NCBI GenBank assembly: GCA_964035015.1
Contig: OZ035997.1
Coordinates: 64,828,404-64,892,403, forward strand
DNA length: 64,000 bases
Direction of reading: 5' to 3'
DNA from: Corallium rubrum
Lineage: Eukaryota > Cnidaria > Anthozoa > Scleralcyonacea > Coralliidae
Part shown: positions 1,951-61,017 of the stretch, piece after piece
How the letters are laid out: every line of letters starts with the position of its first letter
How positions within the stretch are numbered: the first letter of the stretch is position 1
Program-made: the position numbers and the translations under genes
The notes under the pieces: model-generated
What the model was told of the DNA's origin: nothing
Seen by the model: only the letters and a program-made list of their open reading frames with translations
The model's database searches: none

Positions 1951-2609
1951 AAAGTATTAGATTTAAAAAAATATTTCATATCAAACTCTTCGTATACAAA
2001 TAGTCTATATCGTCTTACAGACAAAGATACCCCCAACGGTGCATTATATAAACTCGTCCAAAATATGCGGTTTTTCGGTTCGTGTGCCTCGTAAGTTGAA
2101 AATAATATTCACTTAGAAACGGATTATAAAATGTAGACGTATGCTACACATTCTTCATTGATTTTGATAAAGATTCGTCGCATTTTGGAGTCGGACTCGG
2201 GGGGTTGAAAGTCGCGCGCTCTATAATAATATTGCTCCAAAATCGCCGTGTACAGCGGAAGTTGCGTGAAAACTGGTTCTAGTACTTCCGCTTAAGAATA
2301 TGGCATTCACTTAGATCCGGTTTTGAAATCTACGTATTTTGGCGCGCATTTTGATACCTATTTCATACATATTCACCGCGAATTGGTCTCGGACTGATGG
2401 CCTTGTATTGTAGGTATTTGGGGATTTTGCTCTATATTTGCATATTGTTTACAACGTTAATTAATGCTGTTTCGACTGTTGGACATGATGGTGGAAAAGC
2501 AGGACCGCCGAATACTTACGAGATAAGCAAGTAAGGGAACATTTTATATTTGTACCTTGTAAATACATAGTCTCTCGTACATAGTTGTGAATATTTCGAC
2601 ATATTTTTA
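1951..2609 (+). other. 5' flank of the RAG1-like gene, possible leader exon
   Basis: No long reading frame. A GTAAGG donor-like site at about 2531-2536 follows a short open stretch, and a TTTATTTACAG acceptor-like site lies at about 2703-2713 inside the annotated ORF. The transposase may therefore have a spliced 5' end instead of starting at 2610. No terminal inverted repeat was recognised. Confidence 0.3.
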
Positions 2610-5033
2610 ATGTTGACAAATGTTGAAAACCTCAAATACATACACGGCTTGGGAATTGTGCTTGGGAATTGTGGAAATATTATAAATAAATTTTATGTTT
2701 TATTTATTTACAGTTTGTTAATTTATACGCTGACTAAAGAGAGAACCCGAGACGATGGCGAGACCTATGAGTCCTGGTTAGGCGCTGTTATTGACCACAT
2801 TTTGATTGAATCAGGAATACGTGGTGTTATCATTGGCAACCGAATATTAAATGTGTTTGGAAGCAAGATAAGCTCTCTATATTCGGCCCTAAAACGTGCA
2901 AAATGTGCAGGAGGGAAATCGGTTAGAAGGCTTGTGAACAAGTGGGAACTGGGTCCAAAATATAGTTTCACCATACATTACAACGAATTGGAAATTGTAT
3001 GTCTTCAGAATGAAAACAAGAAGCTAAAAGGGGAAAAAAGAGTTCTTGAACAGTCGTTGGAGGAAGAGAGCACCAAAAGGATATGTGTAGAAAAAAAACT
3101 CGAGACTGCTACAAACATGGTCATGCAAAATAAGGAACAATACAAGAAAAAATTTAAACAAATAGTAAATAAGGTAGCCAAACTGAGCAGCAATACGAAA
3201 TCAAGGGGCCCAGACAAAAGGAAAAAATTTAGTGAATACTCGAAACAACACCAGGCACGGATTCGAAAGCAGTTGAAGGAGCAGTGTCAAACAACATTGT
3301 CATTTCTTGGGCACTACGATTATGTACCATCACAAATTGAGCTTTACAATCATGACACTGGGATGGTTGAAAGTTTCACTTTTATCGAGGACAATGAATT
3401 GAATGAATTGCCACAAGACAATGGGAATGACAAGGAAATCAGTGAAGCCGAAATTGATAAAATGAATATGTGGCTGTACCTTAAAGATAAGTTCAACTTA
3501 TCAAATGAGGCATGGCGTGAAATTTCCATGGCATCAGATGGTCCACCATGTTTGAACAAAATTATAAAACACACGAGAAAGTTAAACCAAAAGTGGAACT
3601 TAAAATCCACCCCAGGAAAGGCAGAAGGAGTTCAGGTTAGTTTCCAGGAAACTATTGTGGAACATATCAAGAGACTAAAGGCCAGTGGTGTCATCCAGGA
3701 TGGAGAGAGGATTAAAATAAAATTGAGTGGGGATGGCACTAACATAGGAAAGCGAATAAGTGTTGTTAACATAACATTTACCATCCTAAATGAGAAAACA
3801 TTAGCAATGAGTGAAAGGGGAAACTACATATTGGCTGTACTTAGAACAACAGAAAGTTATGATACATTGGCTGAAAGTCTATCAGATATAGTTAAGGAAA
3901 TGCAAGATCTAAAAGATATATCTGTTGACAATGAAACATTTTATTTTGAATATTTTCTTGGAGGAGATTGGAAGTTTCTCGCTTGTGTTTGTGCAATTGG
4001 GGCTGCGAATGCTGATTATGCATGTATATGGTGCAAATGTGCTCGTCTAGACCGGTGTGACACAACAAAACACTGGTCAATTTTGGATCCCGACAATGGT
4101 GCCCGGACACTAAATGAAATTGAGCGATATGCCAGATCTAGGAAATTTAATTGTAAGTCTAAACCCATTTTCCCTTTCATTCCTCTTAGTCATGTGGTAA
4201 TTGATACACTTCATCTCTTCCTAAGAGTTTCTGATAACCTAATTGGACATTTAATAAGAGAGCTCAAAGTTTGTGACTCAATTGAAAAGAAAATCAAGTT
4301 TTCTGATGGTTTCTGCAGAGAAAAGTATAGGAACATGTCAAGGTATGAGACATTCTTGCAAGAGTTAGGTATCCCATTTTCTTGGTATGTTGGAAAAGAA
4401 ACCAAACAGTTGGAGTACCGAGATTTGACAGGGCCAGAGAAGGTAAAGCTTTTTCAAAACATAAAGATTTATTTTTTATTGCCAAATTCAGAAGATAAAG
4501 ATACAGTCCAGAAAGTTTGGGATGACTTTTGGAAAATTAGACAGGATTTGAAGCATGATTTTAATTCAGATGATGTGGAAGTTCTCAAAAGAAAGATCAC
4601 CTCCTGGCTAGAACTCTATCTAACTGTTTATCAAGCGAAAGATGTGACACCCTACATTCATGCACTTTATGCGCATGTGCCCGAGTTCCTGAGCTTATAC
4701 ACCAACCTTGAATATTTTACACAACAGGGCATGGAAAAATACAATGATATTACCTCTAAGAATTTTTTTCGATCAAGTAACCACAGGGGTGTTTCTGCAC
4801 TTGAACAGATTTTTCTCAAAAAGAACAGAGTACAGTATTTGGAGGCAGCTGGTTGTGCTAGGGTTAAAAAAATATATACCTGTTCTAATTGCAACAATAT
4901 AGGGCACACAATAAAAACATGCACTGCTGAATGTAATAATTGTAAAAGTACAACTTGTTGTGCACATCTTGTAAAGTATAATGGAAAATATCACCCTAAG
5001 TGCACTGTACCTATTGATACTACCGCTAGTTGA
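2610..5033 (+). CDS. RAG1-like DDE transposase, intact
   Basis: An 807-residue uninterrupted frame. Residues 132-185 are charged and coiled-coil-like. The core matches the RAG1/Transib RNase-H-fold transposase. Candidate catalytic residues are D375 (SGDGTNIG), D453 (GGDWKFL) and E709 (GMEKYND). A zinc site is formed by C472-x2-C475 (CIWC) and H684-x4-H689 (HALYAH). In mouse RAG1 the equivalents are D600, D708, E962, C727/C730 and H937/H942. The gaps D708-C727 (19), C727-C730 (3), H937-H942 (5) and H942-E962 (20) are reproduced exactly here. A CCHC zinc knuckle (C758, C761, H766, C771) and more Cys/His follow at the C terminus, where invertebrate RAG1-like proteins also have a cysteine-rich tail. 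The true N terminus is uncertain because residues 1-45 may be intronic. No RSS-like terminal repeats were found, so it could be a transposon gene or a stranded or domesticated copy. Its neighbour at 5713-6420 is convergent. Confidence 0.82.
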   Translation: MLTNVENLKYIHGLGIVLGNCGNIINKFYVLFIYSLLIYTLTKERTRDDGETYESWLGAVIDHILIESGIRGVIIGNRILNVFGSKISSLYSALKRAKCAGGKSVRRLVNKWELGPKYSFTIHYNELEIVCLQNENKKLKGEKRVLEQSLEEESTKRICVEKKLETATNMVMQNKEQYKKKFKQIVNKVAKLSSNTKSRGPDKRKKFSEYSKQHQARIRKQLKEQCQTTLSFLGHYDYVPSQIELYNHDTGMVESFTFIEDNELNELPQDNGNDKEISEAEIDKMNMWLYLKDKFNLSNEAWREISMASDGPPCLNKIIKHTRKLNQKWNLKSTPGKAEGVQVSFQETIVEHIKRLKASGVIQDGERIKIKLSGDGTNIGKRISVVNITFTILNEKTLAMSERGNYILAVLRTTESYDTLAESLSDIVKEMQDLKDISVDNETFYFEYFLGGDWKFLACVCAIGAANADYACIWCKCARLDRCDTTKHWSILDPDNGARTLNEIERYARSRKFNCKSKPIFPFIPLSHVVIDTLHLFLRVSDNLIGHLIRELKVCDSIEKKIKFSDGFCREKYRNMSRYETFLQELGIPFSWYVGKETKQLEYRDLTGPEKVKLFQNIKIYFLLPNSEDKDTVQKVWDDFWKIRQDLKHDFNSDDVEVLKRKITSWLELYLTVYQAKDVTPYIHALYAHVPEFLSLYTNLEYFTQQGMEKYNDITSKNFFRSSNHRGVSALEQIFLKKNRVQYLEAAGCARVKKIYTCSNCNNIGHTIKTCTAECNNCKSTTCCAHLVKYNGKYHPKCTVPIDTTAS

Positions 5034-5307
5034 TGTCGCTGATTTGTAAACATTTTCAAAACTTTAAATCTCAACAGGAAAGGGGATTGTACATATAACA
5101 CAAATATTGGGTAGAAAGCACATTTTTAAAAATATATATTTGGTGGTTTTAATTGTTTTATTCTACAATACTGTACAATAATGTATATATTCTACACTCG
5201 AATTTTCCTTCACCCAAAATCTTTAGAACATGCTATGTAATCGAGTGAAATGCCCAATATTACTTATAATATACAGTGTCTATTGGTATTTTACAGTAAA
5301 GTTGAAC
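5034..5307. repeat. 3' flank with dispersed repeat segment
   Basis: About 85 bases at 5180-5265 recur in reverse orientation at about 58152-58235, including GAATTTTCCTTCACCC and AACATGCTATGTAATCGAG. The match is near-identical, so it belongs to a dispersed repeat and not to the transposase gene. Its ends are not resolved. Confidence 0.6.
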
Positions 5308-5615
5308 TGACCCCTGGGAGGGCAGGCAAACACAGGGGCATTTGACATTTTCAATGTTTTTTCAAATGCCCCTGTGTTTGCCAGTATCCAGTCATTTCAC
5401 CAATGATCGCTTCGCCAACATCTTGGGTAGGGTTAGTTTTAGGGTTAGCTTTAGGGAAAGGATAGGGTTAGCTTTAGGGTTAGGATTGGTATAGGGTTAC
5501 ATTCAGGGTTAGATTTGGTGGCAAATCTATCCGAGACGTTGGCGAACTGCCTGTTGGTGAAACGACTAGTTGGCAAAACGACTGTAATTCTGTTTGCCCT
5601 CCCTCCCAGTGGTCA
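5308..5615. mobile_element. MITE with telomere-like interior
   Basis: About 308 bp with imperfect terminal inverted repeats: left TGACCCCTGGGAGGG, right end reverse complement TGACCACTGGGAGGG, both followed by CAAACA-type sequence. The interior has several TAGGGTTAG/TTTAGGGTTAG words in the TTAGGG phase, mixed with TTAGCTTTAGGG variants. No clear target duplication. It lies between the two convergent genes. Confidence 0.55.
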
Positions 5616-5712
5616 GGCGAAATATTGATTGGCGTTAAAGTTAAATAAATTTAAACATCATAGTTGCATGTATAGGAAAATAGAAAATGTTCAAATGCAG
5701 TATTATGTCTTA

Positions 5713-6420
5713 TTAATGCCTTTGCTTATATTGTATACTGTTTCCATTATTTTTGACAAACGTAAAAACTAACTGAGAACAGTCTTCTATTTCAGTCTTC
5801 ACATATTTTCCTCCAATGACTTTATACTCCACTATTGATGACTTCCGTCCCAACCAAAATTTTACTGTCCCTTCAATCACAAAGCAGTAATCACCACGGA
5901 TATTTACTATCCTTTCGTCCCATTTCTGCCCAAGAATACCATCAAACACTCGGTTTGACGAAATAGTGTAGACTAATCTACCTCTTTCCATAACACCAGC
6001 TGCAACACTGCCAAGTACACGTGTAAACACATCCTCGCTGACATCTATTTCGAGACGAACATCTGGGTCATCTTTTCGTCCAGAGTTCAAATTCCGTTTG
6101 ATACCACGATACAAAACATCAATGAAATGATCGAGCCTATCGTCTAACGACATCGTTGTCAAAACACGCGGCTTTTCATGGCGAATGAATGGAAAATATT
6201 CGCCTTCTCGGTCATATGGCCGCCACTCATCGAATCGCGAATCGTATCCTTTAAAGTGAATACGCACACGTTTATTCCCCTGATCAACCTCTTTAACCTC
6301 GACTTCGTAGAGATTGTTGTCTTTCTTCGGTCGTTTGATCCGCTCTTTTATGTTCGAAACAACGAATTCATCAGCAAAACGTTGAGGTTTTTGTAAAGTT
6401 CGCTTAGGTCTGGACGCCAT
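5713..6420 (-). CDS. Chromo-barrel (tudor-knot-like) protein
   Basis: The ATG at 6420 (MASRPKRTLQ) is the best start and gives 235 residues; the frame is open further upstream but without an ATG. After a basic N terminus, residues 35-80 (YEVEVKEVDQGNK, then VRIHFKGYDSRFDEWRPYD) form a chromo-barrel of the MRG15/MOF type, where the FKGYDSRFDEW segment lines the aromatic cage that reads methyl-lysine in known members. The remaining 150 residues are conserved-looking (DDPDVRLEIDV, KWDERIVNIRGDYCFVIEGT) but match no domain I can name. Proteins of this layout are, as I recall, multicopy in cnidarians. The gene is tail to tail with the RAG1-like gene, 680 bp apart. No intron is needed. Its role is unknown; a chromatin-binding partner is inference from the barrel and the position. 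Confidence 0.7.
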   Translation of the reverse strand: MASRPKRTLQKPQRFADEFVVSNIKERIKRPKKDNNLYEVEVKEVDQGNKRVRIHFKGYDSRFDEWRPYDREGEYFPFIRHEKPRVLTTMSLDDRLDHFIDVLYRGIKRNLNSGRKDDPDVRLEIDVSEDVFTRVLGSVAAGVMERGRLVYTISSNRVFDGILGQKWDERIVNIRGDYCFVIEGTVKFWLGRKSSIVEYKVIGGKYVKTEIEDCSQLVFTFVKNNGNSIQYKQRH

Positions 6421-6480
6421 GTTGTTATTGTATGGCGCGCGTTTTTGTTGCCAAAAAAAACTGGACCCGAGTTTGATCAA

Positions 6481-8160
6481 ACGTTCATCTTAATAGGGAA
6501 AGAGTTTGATATGTGTATTAATGCAACTCCATCGACTTTTGTGCTGAACTCTTATATATGTCACAAGATTATCTAATATTTTCTATGTTTTAGAGTGTTT
6601 TCACCATGCAATTGAATTTACAATGCTCAACTATTTATCTTACACTTAGGCTTTCAAGTCAAATACATTCCAGTATCCGCATGTACGCATTGCGTACCTA
6701 TTTTTCTCACCTCTTCCCAGCAGGACACTGGAAAGTCCAAAAATTTAATATTAATTACAATAGACAGAGTATTTACACATTTCTTCTATGTTTTTTAATT
6801 ATAAAATTGAAAACTACAAGTTACTATAACTTATCGCTTGACATAATATGGCAAGGGTTTTGACAGGATATACACATAATAATATACAAATATTAAATAA
6901 TCGTGCCTCTTGCTCTAATGCTGTGGCAAAACTGTCAATGCAATTCCAAGTGCTTAATTATGTTTTGACAAATCTAGAGCTTTAATAAAATTATACAGTA
7001 CAGCAAATTATGTACCATTGTATCTACATTGTATCAGTCAACATACAAACGCAGTCAGAATGTTGATCAGCACAAACACAATGAACCCACACCAATATAC
7101 ATTGTAAACCTAAAAATAGACGAAAACAACCATGAAATTTCCTAGCAAGGAACAGTTTCAGTTGTAGAAACGGATATCTTACCTCGACAAGATAAACTTT
7201 CCTCACCGAGATTGTAAGACAGTTCACAACTCAGTGTGTCGTGGCATTGCCATTTGCCAATTTAGAAAATCCATCGCCGCCGTGGTGTTGACAACTTCTG
7301 ATCGACATGCCTCACTGGACAAGTTATTTGGCTTGTCTAACTAACCAACGGCAACAAACAACAGTTTGTTCAGCGACAGAAATCTCTCACGAGGAATGAG
7401 ATCATGGTTGTCGAGTTCCACTCGATAGTTTGTGCTGTTAACAGCGCTGATAAACTAATGAAAGAGCACTGCTTTCCTCGAGACTGGCCACTGAAACCTT
7501 CATGACCTTGATGAATACTTCAACGAGAAAGTAAAGACATGATGTATTTGTTCTTATCGTGAATTTTCTGTCGAGGAAGAAGCTGAGTGAACGGTAGCGG
7601 AACTGCGCACTGAGTCACATCAGCTCATATATGGATGACGTAATGCCGACAGACAAACGCAAAATTCAACAAATCGAGATCTGGTCGACTATACATAGCT
7701 CGGAAAAAGGACTGGGCACGAGGCAACGTCAAGAATAGTGTGCTGCCTCGCTGACGCTCGGCAGCAACTATTTTAACTGTGTCTGTTTGTGGAGAAGATC
7801 ACAAACAAGATTTTAGTTTCTTTTAAATACGATACATGACCATGCATGTTTTAACCATTTTAACACTACAGAACCCAAACGTCGCGTGACCGAGAAAAAT
7901 CGGAACCATGCTATTAAATTCATTTATAAGATTCGTCGGGCCAAAGATTAATAGTTTAGCGTGCGGTACGTGTCACTAGACATTCATTCCCCCCACAATT
8001 AACACGATTTAACAATTCCTTGCTTACGACGGCATTCCGCAAAACCTTCAATTTTAGACCCGACAACTTTTGGTCGAAAGCAAAACAGGTCGTTCGTTCC
8101 AGTTTCAAGTAGGACAATTATATATCAAAATGCCTGTTAAGTGAAAATTAAGTCTATCTT
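6481..8160. other. Intergenic, dispersed repeat pieces
   Basis: No convincing gene. About 6680-6710 has the palindromic word GTACGCATTGCGTAC, also found near 27392 and 43548. About 6820-6960 recurs inverted near 55140-55270 (AACAGGATATACA/CAAGAGGCA type words). About 7690-7770 matches 50093-50175 in reverse and carries the terminal hairpin at 7742-7767. Confidence 0.4.
7742..7767. repeat. Terminal hairpin of a dispersed element
   Basis: TGCTGCCTCGC and GCTCGGCAGCA flank a 4-base loop. The same hairpin, inverted, lies at 50093-50118, with over 80 bp of similar sequence beside it (CGAGCTATAG / CATAGCTCGG). This indicates a mobile repeat whose tip is the hairpin. Confidence 0.5.
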
Positions 8161-39443: not shown

Positions 39444-40638
39444 TAAGGCGAATAAAGTGATGAGCGGACTTCACACCCTTAGTTAGATCAATGAGACGAC
39501 GCAAGAAGGCCCGTCCAGGGACAACCACTGAGCATGCAAAATTAAAATAAACCAGTTAAAGATTGAATTTCACGTAAAGAGACCTTTTTGCGGCGTCTAA
39601 ATGACGAGATTAAAAATATGCATTTCTCAGTTTTATCGGCTGGTAAACGGGCCTCCATGCGCAGGGTGTCTAGCTCGATGCCGGCAAACGAAATAATATT
39701 TTGTGGACCGACGGTTTTTTCCGGCACCATAGGTACGCCCAAGTAATCACATAACGAAAGAAAGCAGCAAAGTTAATGCGGCATTGGTGATAAGAACTAG
39801 CTGCAATAAGATAATCATCAAGTATGTGGATGAGATTCGATATCTTTAGATGTTTCCTAGCAACCCATTCGAGAGCAGTGCTAAACATTTCAAAAGTGCG
39901 ACAGGAAGACGCGCAGCCCATTGGCATAGCGCGGTCATAATAGTATTTTCCCTGCCAGGAAATACCTAGGAGATCATAATCTGAAGGCTGAATCGGGATA
40001 ATCCGAAAAGCACTCTCAATATCTGTTTTGGCCAAAAAACTACCTCGTCTTGTTCGTTTGATTAATGCAATTGCATCGTCCACCCTGGCGTAAGTGACTG
40101 TTGTGTGCTCTTGAGCAATACCGTCATTAACAGAATCACCATTTGGGAACGACAGATGATGAATCAAACGATATTCCCCAAAGGCCTTCTTTGGAACAAC
40201 ACCCAAAGGTGACACACGGAAATTGTCGAAAGGAGGTTGATCAAAAGGGCCAGCGAGTCTATTGGCAGCCAACTCCTTCGAAAGTTTAGCACTAACAATC
40301 TCAGGGTTTTGTTGCGCGGACAAGAGGTTTTTCGCAAAATATGAGGTACGTGAACCTTCAAAATGAAGGGGAAAACCAAACTTAAAACCATAATACAAAG
40401 ACGAAGTCAATCTCGAATCGTATCCACATAGTAAGGGTAATAACTTATCAATTTGAACTGGTGTTGGTAGGTCGAGACTTGGCCGCGGATGGCGATGGTT
40501 TGCTGAGAGGCCGTGAGGAACGAAAAGTACATCGAATTGACGGGTGTACTGCACCACATTTGTGGCATTGATGTTTGAAATTGCAGCCTTGGCAATCAAA
40601 CCCTCGATGAAATTTCCGGCAAAACCCTTTAGGAACAA
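39444..40638 (-). pseudogene. DIRS-like reverse transcriptase, frameshifted
   Basis: Intact from about 40638 to 39770: GPFDQPPFDNFRVSPLGVVPK, KTDIESAFRIIPIQ, RAMPMGCASSCRTFE and the active-site ILDDYL. A one-base loss near 39767 moves the frame, after which LGVPMVPEKTVGP and FAGIELDTLRMEARLPADK follow; another shift near 39550 precedes VVVPGRAFLRRLIDLTKGV. It ends at the Helitron-like insertion. Confidence 0.75.
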
Positions 40639-45768: not shown

Positions 45769-47241
45769 TCAACGTCCATGGTTTACATTAATATTGAACG
45801 TGAAAGAACAGTTTTCAAATGTTCCTGATGGCAGAAGAGCTCCAGGATTACAGCCGTTTTCAATCAGAAAATTCTCTTGTTGTGAACTGAGGTAGCTTTG
45901 GCCAGAAGAAGCTGAAACCAAGGCGTTTTGTGGTCTGGACAAAGTGGCTGCAGGAGGACTAATATTATCAAGCTGAGGCTGTGAGATTTCATCGCCTTCG
46001 ACATAAGAAGAAAGGACCTTCGACATATCTTTGAATTGGTTGAGTGTCGGCCGCTCACAATAGCTCTCAATGCTTGTGTCACTTCGATGGCCTGTAATCG
46101 CTTTGATTTTACGCGTCTCGATGTTATTTGACGACAGAACTGTTACGGTTGTAGCCCTCAGCGAGTGGTTTGTGAGATATGGAGAGATTCCTGCTCTGGT
46201 GGTGATGATTTTTAACATATTCTCGAGAGTGTTGTGACCAAGCTTTCGAGCGCTATACCACACTATGCAGGTCTCAGGACTAAACTTGCTGGACAATTCT
46301 TTTGGTCTCTGGAAAAGAGCATCATTTTCTGGATTTAGATGCGAAAGATATGCCTTTATCAAAGCTACTGGACAACGCGGTGAACCTGGCCTGGAAAAAA
46401 TTTTGCCATCTGAGTGATCTTCGGTAGCTTCAAGTCCTCCAGGATGGTTTTTGCTCGTGAGGACGGTTCCTGCCTCCTTCTTATTTAACTCGAAGTATTC
46501 TTCGCCATTGGCCGTCGTTACTAGACGAAGCATTGATTTCTTCATGAGAGCTTGGTTTTCTCTTCCTCTTTTGCCGAAATACAACGAAGTAAAAAACCAT
46601 GCAGTTTGGATCAAAGCGCGAGGGTCGTGTGTTGTTGCTTGTGCTAGTTCGCCTTTCTCGTACAACTTTTGAATTGTTTCACTTGTCAATGGCGTCTTGT
46701 GGATAATCCCTGCAATTTTCCCAGTACTGCAAAGATGCTTAAGGTAAGAATTCAGTGTTTTGTTAGATTCACTGAACATGTTGTTGTCGCAAATGCTGAA
46801 TTTCTTGTTGTATGGCGGCGACTTCAGGTGCCTATCCAGAGCAGCTCTTATCGACAACAACGTTGCTTTTTTATAATAATTCCCGTCATTTTTTCTTATG
46901 GAGACGTAGAATTTGGACAAGCACTTATTCATTTCTGCAACATTCATCTCTTCGAACTCAGTAGTAAATTCTGACTGTTGTTGAAACCACTCTGTTGTGA
47001 AAAAGATATTTTTGACAATTGTAAACAATGTGTAGACGATTGTAGCGTATTTGACTTTTCGCGTTGATAAAATGATGTTTTTAAACGAAATAAAGTTCAC
47101 CAGCATTCTGCAACGTAGTTACTTACCTTTAAACAATTTTAGACCAAATTTTGTTGCTTCTTTTGTGCTTTTTGGTATAGCATTTTCTTTGAAATTGTTT
47201 ATTTCCTCATCTGTTACCTCTACAAAACGGCTTGCCGCCAT
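45769..47241 (-). CDS. Crypton-type tyrosine recombinase, two exons, intact
   Basis: Exon 1 47127-47241 (MAASRFVEVTDEEINNF to KLFK), donor GTAAGT; intron of 135 bp; exon 2 45769-46991 after TTTTTCACAACAG, beginning EWFQQQSEF. Together 445 residues. The protein matches the Crypton/DUF3504 family (relatives: KCTD1, ZMYM and QRICH1 C-terminal domains). N-terminal SAM-like DNA-binding part with FYVSIRKNDGNYY; catalytic part with R180/R182 (GKRGRENQ), H314-x-x-R317 (NHSLRATT), H340 (GHRSD) and the nucleophile Y349 (IESYC). All expected residues are present with no stop or shift, so it could be active. The CCAATCAG box and the GCCGCCAT around the ATG may be its promoter. The C-terminal 95 residues are low-complexity and not recognised. 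Confidence 0.82.

Positions 47242-58101: not shown

Positions 58102-58149
<48 letters not shown>
58102..58149. repeat. TA microsatellite
   Basis: TA tract joined on its right to the repeat also seen at 5180-5265. Confidence 0.9.
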
Positions 58150-58152
<3 letters not shown>

Positions 58153-58280
58153 GATATTGGGCATTTCACTCGATTACATAGCATGTTCTAAGGATTTAGG
58201 GTGAAGGAAAATTCGACTGTAGAATATATACATTTTAAGACCAAACCGGGAGCAGTTGCGAAAAATGCAACTACACAGGC

Positions 58281-58350
58281 CCTCCGGCAGGAATTGAACC
58301 CACGACCTTGCGATTCTAGTGCAACGCTCTGACCACTGAGCCACGGAGGC
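58281..58350 (-). repeat. tRNA-like sequence (SINE head or tRNA pseudogene)
   Basis: The minus strand starts GCCTCCGTGGCTCAGTGG, with A box TGGCTCAGTGGTC, B box GGTTCAATTCC and a closing CCGGAGG that nearly pairs with the start. The D stem is good, but the T stem is poor and the loop would present AGA without the long arm expected of a serine tRNA. It is therefore more likely a SINE head or pseudogene than a working tRNA. Confidence 0.5.
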
Positions 58351-59728: not shown

Positions 59729-59962
59729 ACCTACTAAGAATCTTACTGAGAGCCCAGGAGGGTTTTATCTATCGCTCAAAAATGAACTTGGCGATCGCAG
59801 CGATCGTAGCGGTCATATGGAATCCACTGACGCCACAATCGCTATCGTGGCGATCGTTGCGTTTTATATGGTATATAGAATAAATCATTATCTCAAATAC
59901 TGATCATGTGTTATCTACCCGCACCGCAGTAAAGCAATTATATTTAGATAAATCACACGAAC
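59729..59962. other. Intron 1 start, CGATCG-rich patch
   Basis: 59790-59865 has several GCGATCG words in both orientations, forming an imperfect palindrome. The ACE intron 1 donor is at 59961-59962. Confidence 0.4.
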
Positions 59963-61017
59963 CTGACATCCTTGTACAGACCGAAATCCCAGGCCGAAGC
60001 ATGGCACACGACGTCGCGATCTTTGGGTTTTTCGAGCAACGAATTTTCGTAGAAGCGTGAAGGCAAACTTTTCAAGCCAAGAGAAACGAAGAAGGATTCG
60101 GCCAATTTTGTCAGCTTCTTTGGCGTGTTATAGCGCGAGTCTTTCTTTAGATTTTTTGTCACATCCAGACTAGATTTTCCTTTGAACGGTATGACAAGAT
60201 CAAATATATCTACCCAGCTTTGCGCCCACATATTGCCCAGCAAGTGCGCCTCGATGTAACCGTTCGCAGAGACCTTTTCCGCATAGGCTTTCGTCAGTTT
60301 GTGACGAACATAAGCGTGCAGTTCAAGGTATAGCGGCCTCAAATCATTCCAGAGGCCCTCGACGATTGCACCCAGATCGTCAACTTCGTACCAAGAGCGC
60401 CACCACTCTCCGCGATCTTTGAATCCGTTTTCTTTGGCGCCTTTGTTGGTCAAAGCCACGAATTCTTTGTAGAGCTGTCGGATATTACGGCCCGACTCGT
60501 TCCGCCATCCCCACCAAGCGCGAAGCAACTCGTTGTAGTCTCGCGAGTCAGCCATGGTGTTCGTCAGTTCGGGACTCAACGAGTCGTTTCCTACTTTGGC
60601 CGTGCTGTAGATATTCTCCATTTCGGATCCAATGTCTCCCACTTTTGCCCTTTCGCTCTCGTTCTTTAATTGAGCGTTGGCCGTAATCAATCGAAGTTGT
60701 CGGGCGGTGTCATAGCTGAGTTTAGGCAAGTCAAACTTCGAAGCGTTCTTGACGATCTCGGCAACAAATTTTCCATAAGCCAAGATGACGTTGTTTTGTA
60801 CCTTTCTGTTGTACTCGGTCAGGTTGGTCGCGTAAGCCCAGGAAGCCAGGCTGTACTCATAATTCTTTGTTAACACCGTTGCGTTGTAATGGTCCAGAAA
60901 GGCTTTGGCTTTGACTTCTTCGTTTTGGTCAATCCCTCTGATTGTGCACACTTGGAGTTCCAAGAGCAAAAACGAAATTAGCAAACGAACAATGGAGAAG
61001 TTCTCGTTGACCTTCAT
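59963..61017 (-). CDS. ACE-like peptidyl-dipeptidase, exon 1
   Basis: First coding exon of an M2-family metallopeptidase that would remove C-terminal dipeptides from extracellular peptides. Starts at MKVNENF with a signal peptide (about residues 1-27, hydrophobic SIVRLLISFLLLELQV), then 351 codons and two bases to the donor AG|GTTCGT. Family blocks: EYSLASWAYATNLTEYN, SPELTNTMADSRDYNEL, WWGWRNESGRNIR, LLGNMWAQSWVDIFDL (with the Gln281-equivalent) and VVCHASAWDF. Several N-glycosylation sites. With exons 2-5 the protein is about 640 residues, the length of single-domain invertebrate ACE. The gene covers 46.3 kb; an AG acceptor-like TATATTTCAG about 37 bp upstream of the ATG hints at a non-coding 5' exon. 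Confidence 0.92.

Follow-up and report, generated by a model that had tools for sequence, protein, structure and literature searches.

The stretch of Corallium rubrum DNA analysed here (64,000 nucleotides (nt), hereafter the window, to which all positions refer) contains on its forward strand, at 2610-5033, an uninterrupted ATG-started frame of 807 codons (807 amino acids (aa)), whose codons give the residue numbers used below. An earlier inspection of the letters (hereafter the sequence-only reading) had described this frame as the intact gene of a RAG1-like transposase. Our results show that the gene encodes a genuine RAG1-fold transposase. RAG1 is the enzyme that assembles antibody genes, RAG acts by a hairpin mechanism, and the origin of V(D)J recombination has been traced via RAGL and Transib elements.

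The frame was present as described and no stop codon breaks it, but its first 34 codons are probably intron and hence non-coding, because a splice acceptor falls inside codon 35, a GTAAGG-type donor lies directly after 2530, and the similarity of those homologues that reach the N-terminus (among 35 aligned rows) starts only at about 'LLIY'. Three donors have an upstream frame that is open into the main exon, exon 2, and the one at 2530 is the only GTAAGG-type donor among them. In addition, several homologues have a similar pyrimidine-tract reading directly ahead of the conserved LLIY block. The features of the gene and its surroundings are shown in Table 1.

Table 1. Features of the transposase gene and its candidate ends
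Feature	Positions	Strand	Basis or remark
Weak candidate left end, 14-nt inverted repeat CATATCAAACTCTT	1977-1990	+	
Candidate first coding exon	2397-2530	+	Predicted; translation ...GHDGGKAGPPNTYEIS-N; sole GTAAGG-type donor
Candidate intron	2531-2713	+	CAA/GTAAGG ... TTTATTTACAG/T (last base 2713); pyrimidine tracts in homologues
Main coding exon of transposase	2714-5033	+	Last base of codon 35, residues 36-807, stop
Long helix, probable coiled coil, residues 128-194	2991-3191	+	Structural model; Pfam leucine-zipper match (E 1.9e-4), below cut-off
Basic helix and beta hairpin, about residues 199-258	3204-3383	+	Candidate DNA-binding part
RAG1-core-like region, about residues 276-755	3435-4874	+	
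D375, first catalytic Asp (RAG1 D600)	3732-3734	+	Alignment
D453, second catalytic Asp (RAG1 D708)	3966-3968	+	Alignment
C472-x2-C475, ZnC2 pair (RAG1 C727, C730)	4023-4034	+	Alignment
H535 in IDxLH (RAG1 IDALH)	4212-4214	+	Alignment
H684-x4-H689, ZnH2 pair (RAG1 H937, H942)	4659-4676	+	Alignment
E709, catalytic Glu (RAG1 E962)	4734-4736	+	Alignment
C-terminal zinc knuckle Cx2Cx3GHx4C, residues 758-771	4881-4922	+	As in RAG1L CTT*
Weak candidate right end	6500-6513	-	Partner of 1977-1990; would also enclose conserved cnidarian gene

Similarity to the RAG1 core

The RAG1-like catalytic core was borne out by profile, profile-profile and fold comparisons. When a 35-member profile of the family was compared with PDB sequences, the first 13 of 43 matches were RAG1 or RAG1-like proteins (RAG1L), with a best expect value (E) of 4.2e-4, and in the best match the D-C-C and H-H-E blocks were both in register. 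A larger profile of 97 rows (the window protein and 96 homologues) also gave RAG1 or RAG1L as the first 10 of 34 matches, with a slightly weaker best E of 0.0035. Compared profile to profile with 15 sequences of vertebrate RAG1, the family reached a probability of 89-90% over 327-328 columns (E 1.4e-6 to 2.1e-6), while one reversed control reached 0.5% (E 0.12). In this alignment D453 falls on the Asp of GYDEKLV and CIWC on CTLC; H684 and H689 fall on the His pair of HKTLAH, E709 on the Glu of GNES, and H535 on the IDALH histidine. Two further parallels that had been drawn by eye were recovered as well, namely that of D375 with the Asp of CDGMGD (D600) and that of ESYDTLAESL with RAG1 DESDHETLTAIL. 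In Pfam, RAG1 (PF12940) matched 23 of the 97 members (4 of 35 at E<=1 and 19 of the 62 others at E<=0.1; the two member-by-member scans cover 25 of 95 and 25 of 70 matched families), and one homologue, P0084, passed the curated cut-off. The RAG1 core fold was found in structure comparison as well as in the profile-profile comparison.

It should be noted that several observations weigh against this interpretation. The window protein alone has no match to Pfam RAG1 or to RAG1 sequences of the PDB at E<=10, and the link to RAG1 therefore depends on the profile of the family and on the fold. Similarly, 74 of the 97 members were unmatched by Pfam RAG1 in the two scans, the first catalytic block alone scores poorly in the 35-member PDB search, and structural-alignment identity to RAG1 and RAG1L is only 14-17%. 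The N-terminal region gave no match above noise in the PDB. Finally, no convincing target duplication was found at the 14-nt candidate ends, and mobility is unproven.

Family of relatives and conserved residues

About 5.8 billion proteins were searched and at least 7996 candidates scored, which identified 96 relatives at E<=0.001 with identities from 86% downward, those of the nearest falling through 86, 70, 70 and 58%. All 96 lack an nr or UniRef source tag as well as a precomputed Pfam domain. Relatives were also searched for in viral contigs and prokaryote genome contigs, and none was confirmed. The gene belongs to a broad family of distant RAG1 relatives; neither a model of the window protein's core in the Pfam copy scanned nor a published name in the open-licence PMC literature was found for it.

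All seven residues singled out by the sequence-only reading are at their positions and nearly invariant. D375 is kept in 97 of 97 rows and D453 in 93 of 97; among non-gap rows the fractions are 95/96 for C472, 94/96 for C475, 76/77 for H684, 73/75 for H689 and 72/75 for E709. H535 in IDxLH is kept in 91 of 93. In rows that keep both residues of a pair, the spacings D-x18-C (92/92), C-x2-C (93/93), H-x4-H (73/73) and H-x19-E (71/71) are constant, and 22 of 20,000 composition-matched shuffles contained both spacing patterns jointly. These gaps match those of RAG1, as had been claimed, but they are not peculiar to vertebrate RAG1. We take D600, D708 and E962 of RAG1 to be catalytic and C727, C730, H937 and H942 to be its zinc pairs. 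The interval from the second Asp to the Glu is similar in the two proteins (256 here, 254 in RAG1), whereas that between the two Asp residues is 30 shorter here (78 versus 108, by the RAG1 residue numbers of the sequence-only reading). D375, D453 and E709 would converge in space, judging from the alignments to RAG1.

The same residues place the protein in a wider group. According to PMC12730594, a feature of the CMCT group (EnSpm/CACTA, Mirage, Chapaev, Transib and RAG1) is a DDE triad in which a C(2)C and an H(3-4)H motif lie between the second D and the E, and the window protein has all of these. ESTA and other fungal CMCT members, as described there, resemble the present family in being RAG1-like by remote homology and in having both motifs, but differ in being fungal, in their TA target duplications and in their TET/JBP cargo.

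Regions outside the core

N-terminal to the core, a small alpha/beta domain (about residues 28-127) is followed by a long helix in the structural model, which agrees with the coiled coil expected from the sequence. The basic helix with its hairpin is conserved and begins about 75 residues ahead of the core. The nonamer-binding domain of RAG1 sits at about the same distance before the core, and this resemblance suggests a DNA-gripping role for the basic region. In a fold search, the predicted helix and beta hairpin of residues 194-272 (3189-3425) were faintly, and not significantly, like MADS-box domains (SRF, MEF2). As the sequence-only reading had noted, no RING or nonamer-binding domain is visible in the frame: none is among the eight Pfam matches of the window protein up to E 10, which holds, for the frame itself, also for the N-terminal RING/zinc dimerisation domain of RAG1 and RAG1L.

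The C-terminal CCHC knuckle (C758-x2-C-x3-GH-x4-C771) is also present, and of the 61 rows long enough to include it, 58 have the exact motif. It is not a departure from RAG1-type proteins: Cx2Cx3GHx4C is the CTT* motif of deuterostome and protostome RAG1L, according to an excerpt of PMC7204232. The knuckle supports common descent without proving it, because the motif is also a common, generic zinc-knuckle pattern.

Candidate ends of the element and neighbouring genes

A scan of 1700-2420 against 5034-7200 revealed an exact 14-nt inverted repeat with CA..TG ends at 1977/6513. Ends of CMCT elements are of the form 5'-CA..TG-3' with a target duplication of 2-5 bp, that of Transib being 5 bp. The repeat was rejected as proof of ends, since resampled flank pairs yielded an exact 14-mer in 4 of 300 cases. 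Another reading of the ends, C-ATAT-CAAACTCTT, with a 9-nt end and a palindromic ATAT duplication, has no independent support because ATAT is self-complementary. A repeat at 5180-5273, shared with 58140-58234, was also rejected as a transposon end; it looks like the tail of a short interspersed element (SINE), because its other copy trails a tRNA-Ser-like head. This copy is part of a SINE-like element at 58140-58350 (reverse strand), whose tail alone recurs just 3' of the transposase gene (93.7% over 95 nt), and a tRNA was the sole match of an Rfam scan. Two other repeats lie nearby: a tandem array of seven copies (717-1942; start spacings 167-198 nt), which ends 35 nt ahead of the candidate left end, and a foldback element or one like a miniature inverted-repeat transposable element, whose inverted repeats are nested and which contains a stretch rich in GGGTTAG (5307-5616).

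Convergent to the transposase is a gene of 235 aa (5713-6420, reverse strand; MASRPKRTLQ...) with a weak MBT-repeat match (E 0.014). Its 38 relatives include sequences of the corals Paramuricea clavata (92% identity across 57% of the query) and Stylophora pistillata (51%); the nearest have identities of 84-92, then 68 and 66%, and one cluster holds 143 sequences. It is probably an unnamed host chromatin-type gene and points to a cnidarian, perhaps octocoral, host. A convergent RAG2-like gene (kelch and PHD) was not found, as the neighbour (frame 5713-6480) matches MBT weakly and not kelch or PHD, and a scan of uninterrupted frames of at least 150 aa other than the transposase (10 of the 11, the neighbour among them) gave no kelch or PHD match at E<=0.01.

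Farther along the reverse strand of the window are a frame of 445 aa that matches DUF3504, Phage_integrase and, weakly, QRICH1 (45772-47106), presumably a Crypton-type tyrosine recombinase gene; a reverse transcriptase fragment just below the cut-off (39673-40638; RVT_1, E 3e-6); and an exon or gene piece with a strong Peptidase_M2 (angiotensin-converting enzyme) match (59956-61017; E 4e-100).

Placement of the family and alternative explanations

Taken as a whole, the data are best explained, with considerable confidence, by a DDE transposase of the RAG1/Transib/Chapaev group. Its position within this group is less certain. With the RAG1 core and ProtoRAG RAG1L it shares the RNase H DDE core, D-x18-C-x2-C, H-x4-H-x19-E and the Cx2Cx3GHx4C tail, whereas RAG1 and RAG1L have a RING and a nonamer-binding domain, neither recognisable here, and no RAG2-like gene was identified adjoining the transposase. 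RAG1L cores and Transibs combined have an average identity of 26% (PMC9435367), and the identity of the family is lower; it is near the values under 22% that a section of PMC7204232 gives for Transib against RAG1/RAG1L. Because identity is low, the family would probably fall outside the RAG1/RAG1L clan. It is near both Pfam RAG1 and Chapaev, and by curated score the window protein is in neither. The best 120 of 280 matches of a RAG1 protein search could all be recognised as vertebrate RAG1 from their names or from an identity of 77-99%. Our tree comprises 35 family members and is silent on the branch point from RAG1.

A distinct lineage outside ProtoRAG and Transib, as the sequence-only reading had proposed, is possible, and the family may be a deep outgroup to both Transib and RAG. 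In a more specific form, which is less likely than not, it would be a deep and separate lineage of RAG1 cores and the sister of Transib and RAG1L together, with a RAG1L-type knuckle, a RAG1-length zinc insert and a coiled-coil end grip replacing the nonamer-binding domain.

It is doubtful that the protein is instead a Chapaev transposase, a known superfamily of the same group that corresponds to Pfam DUF1280 and forms one clade with RAG1 (stated in an excerpt of PMC3985635). Chapaev is recorded in lancelet and sea anemone genomes in a passage of PMC4411706, and 4 of the 97 members match DUF1280 weakly (P0072 at E 9e-5, 1 of 35; 3 of the 62 others, best E 0.0099). However, even P0072 stays below the curated cut-off (22.6 versus 25 bits), the window protein has no DUF1280 match up to E 10, and Pfam RAG1 matches more members. 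The cysteine-rich, Chapa-like zinc finger of Chapaev is also absent from this frame, in which residues 1-280 hold Cys 21, 99, 131, 159 and 226, none in a CxxC.

Another explanation, that the family is a deep, subgroup I-like branch of Transib and not a separate lineage, appears unlikely. HzTransib (PDB 6pqx) is similar in fold, in total core length (280-767 here versus 21-484) and in having no RAG2 partner. RAG1L, bacterial and subgroup I Transibs retain the part of the Asp-to-Glu region (helices 11-12) that subgroup II Transibs lost, and the CTT1 tail is present in RAG1L and subgroup I Transibs (PMC9435367); judged by length, the family retains the helix 11-12 region. On the other hand, structural-alignment identity to Transib is 12-14%, Transib never ranked above RAG1 or RAG1L in structural comparisons, and the N-terminal coiled coil and the RAG1-like interval from second Asp to Glu would set the protein apart. 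The GRP-type nonamer-binding domain reported for Transib was not recognised here by eye; an RGP basic region lies at a like distance.

We consider it rather improbable that this is a domesticated host gene that has lost mobility. One intact copy was seen, with a probable intron and ends that are not convincing, and the identities of its nearest relatives step down much like those of the neighbouring gene. However, the family has many divergent members (46 of 96 are under 600 aa), catalytic residues that almost all of them keep, and clusters with as many as 463 sequences, to which a transposon is the better fit. The short members and large clusters are themselves ambiguous, because introns or contig ends can shorten matches and the neighbour's family also has a large cluster; on balance, many divergent, shorter members favour a transposon family. 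Finally, a RAGL-like element in which the 14-nt repeats enclose both the transposase and the convergent MBT-like gene is very improbable despite the layout, the exact CA..TG repeat and the MBT match, and was rejected, as the 38 and 96 homologues of the two genes (13 and 47 of them on contigs of at least 10 kb) have no printed longest-contig size in common, an indirect comparison, and the target duplication is not convincing.

Proposed mode of action and implications

As a DDE transposase of this group, the protein may work as follows. Alignment and fold indicate that D375, D453 and E709 form a metal site on the RNase H fold. By comparison with RAG1, C472/C475 and H684/H689 would bind a zinc ion and so pin down the large insert that separates the second Asp from the Glu. 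Dimerisation and the grip on the transposon ends may be tasks of the coiled coil and the basic region, and the knuckle at the C-terminus may read the terminal bases in the manner of CTT* in ProtoRAG. If the protein acts like RAG and Transib, nicking at the inverted ends would be followed by hairpins on the flanking DNA and by pasting of the element elsewhere.

Surveys started from RAG1 may have left the family unnamed, given the absence of nr and UniRef tags among its members. If it is indeed a separate deep sister lineage, the knuckle and the zinc insert would be older than both Transib and RAG. A large and distant family whose active sites are intact and whose tail resembles that of RAG1L offers a way to sort ancestral from added parts of RAG1; it may help to date the rise of these parts and may provide a further enzyme for tests of hairpin-forming cut-and-paste transposition.
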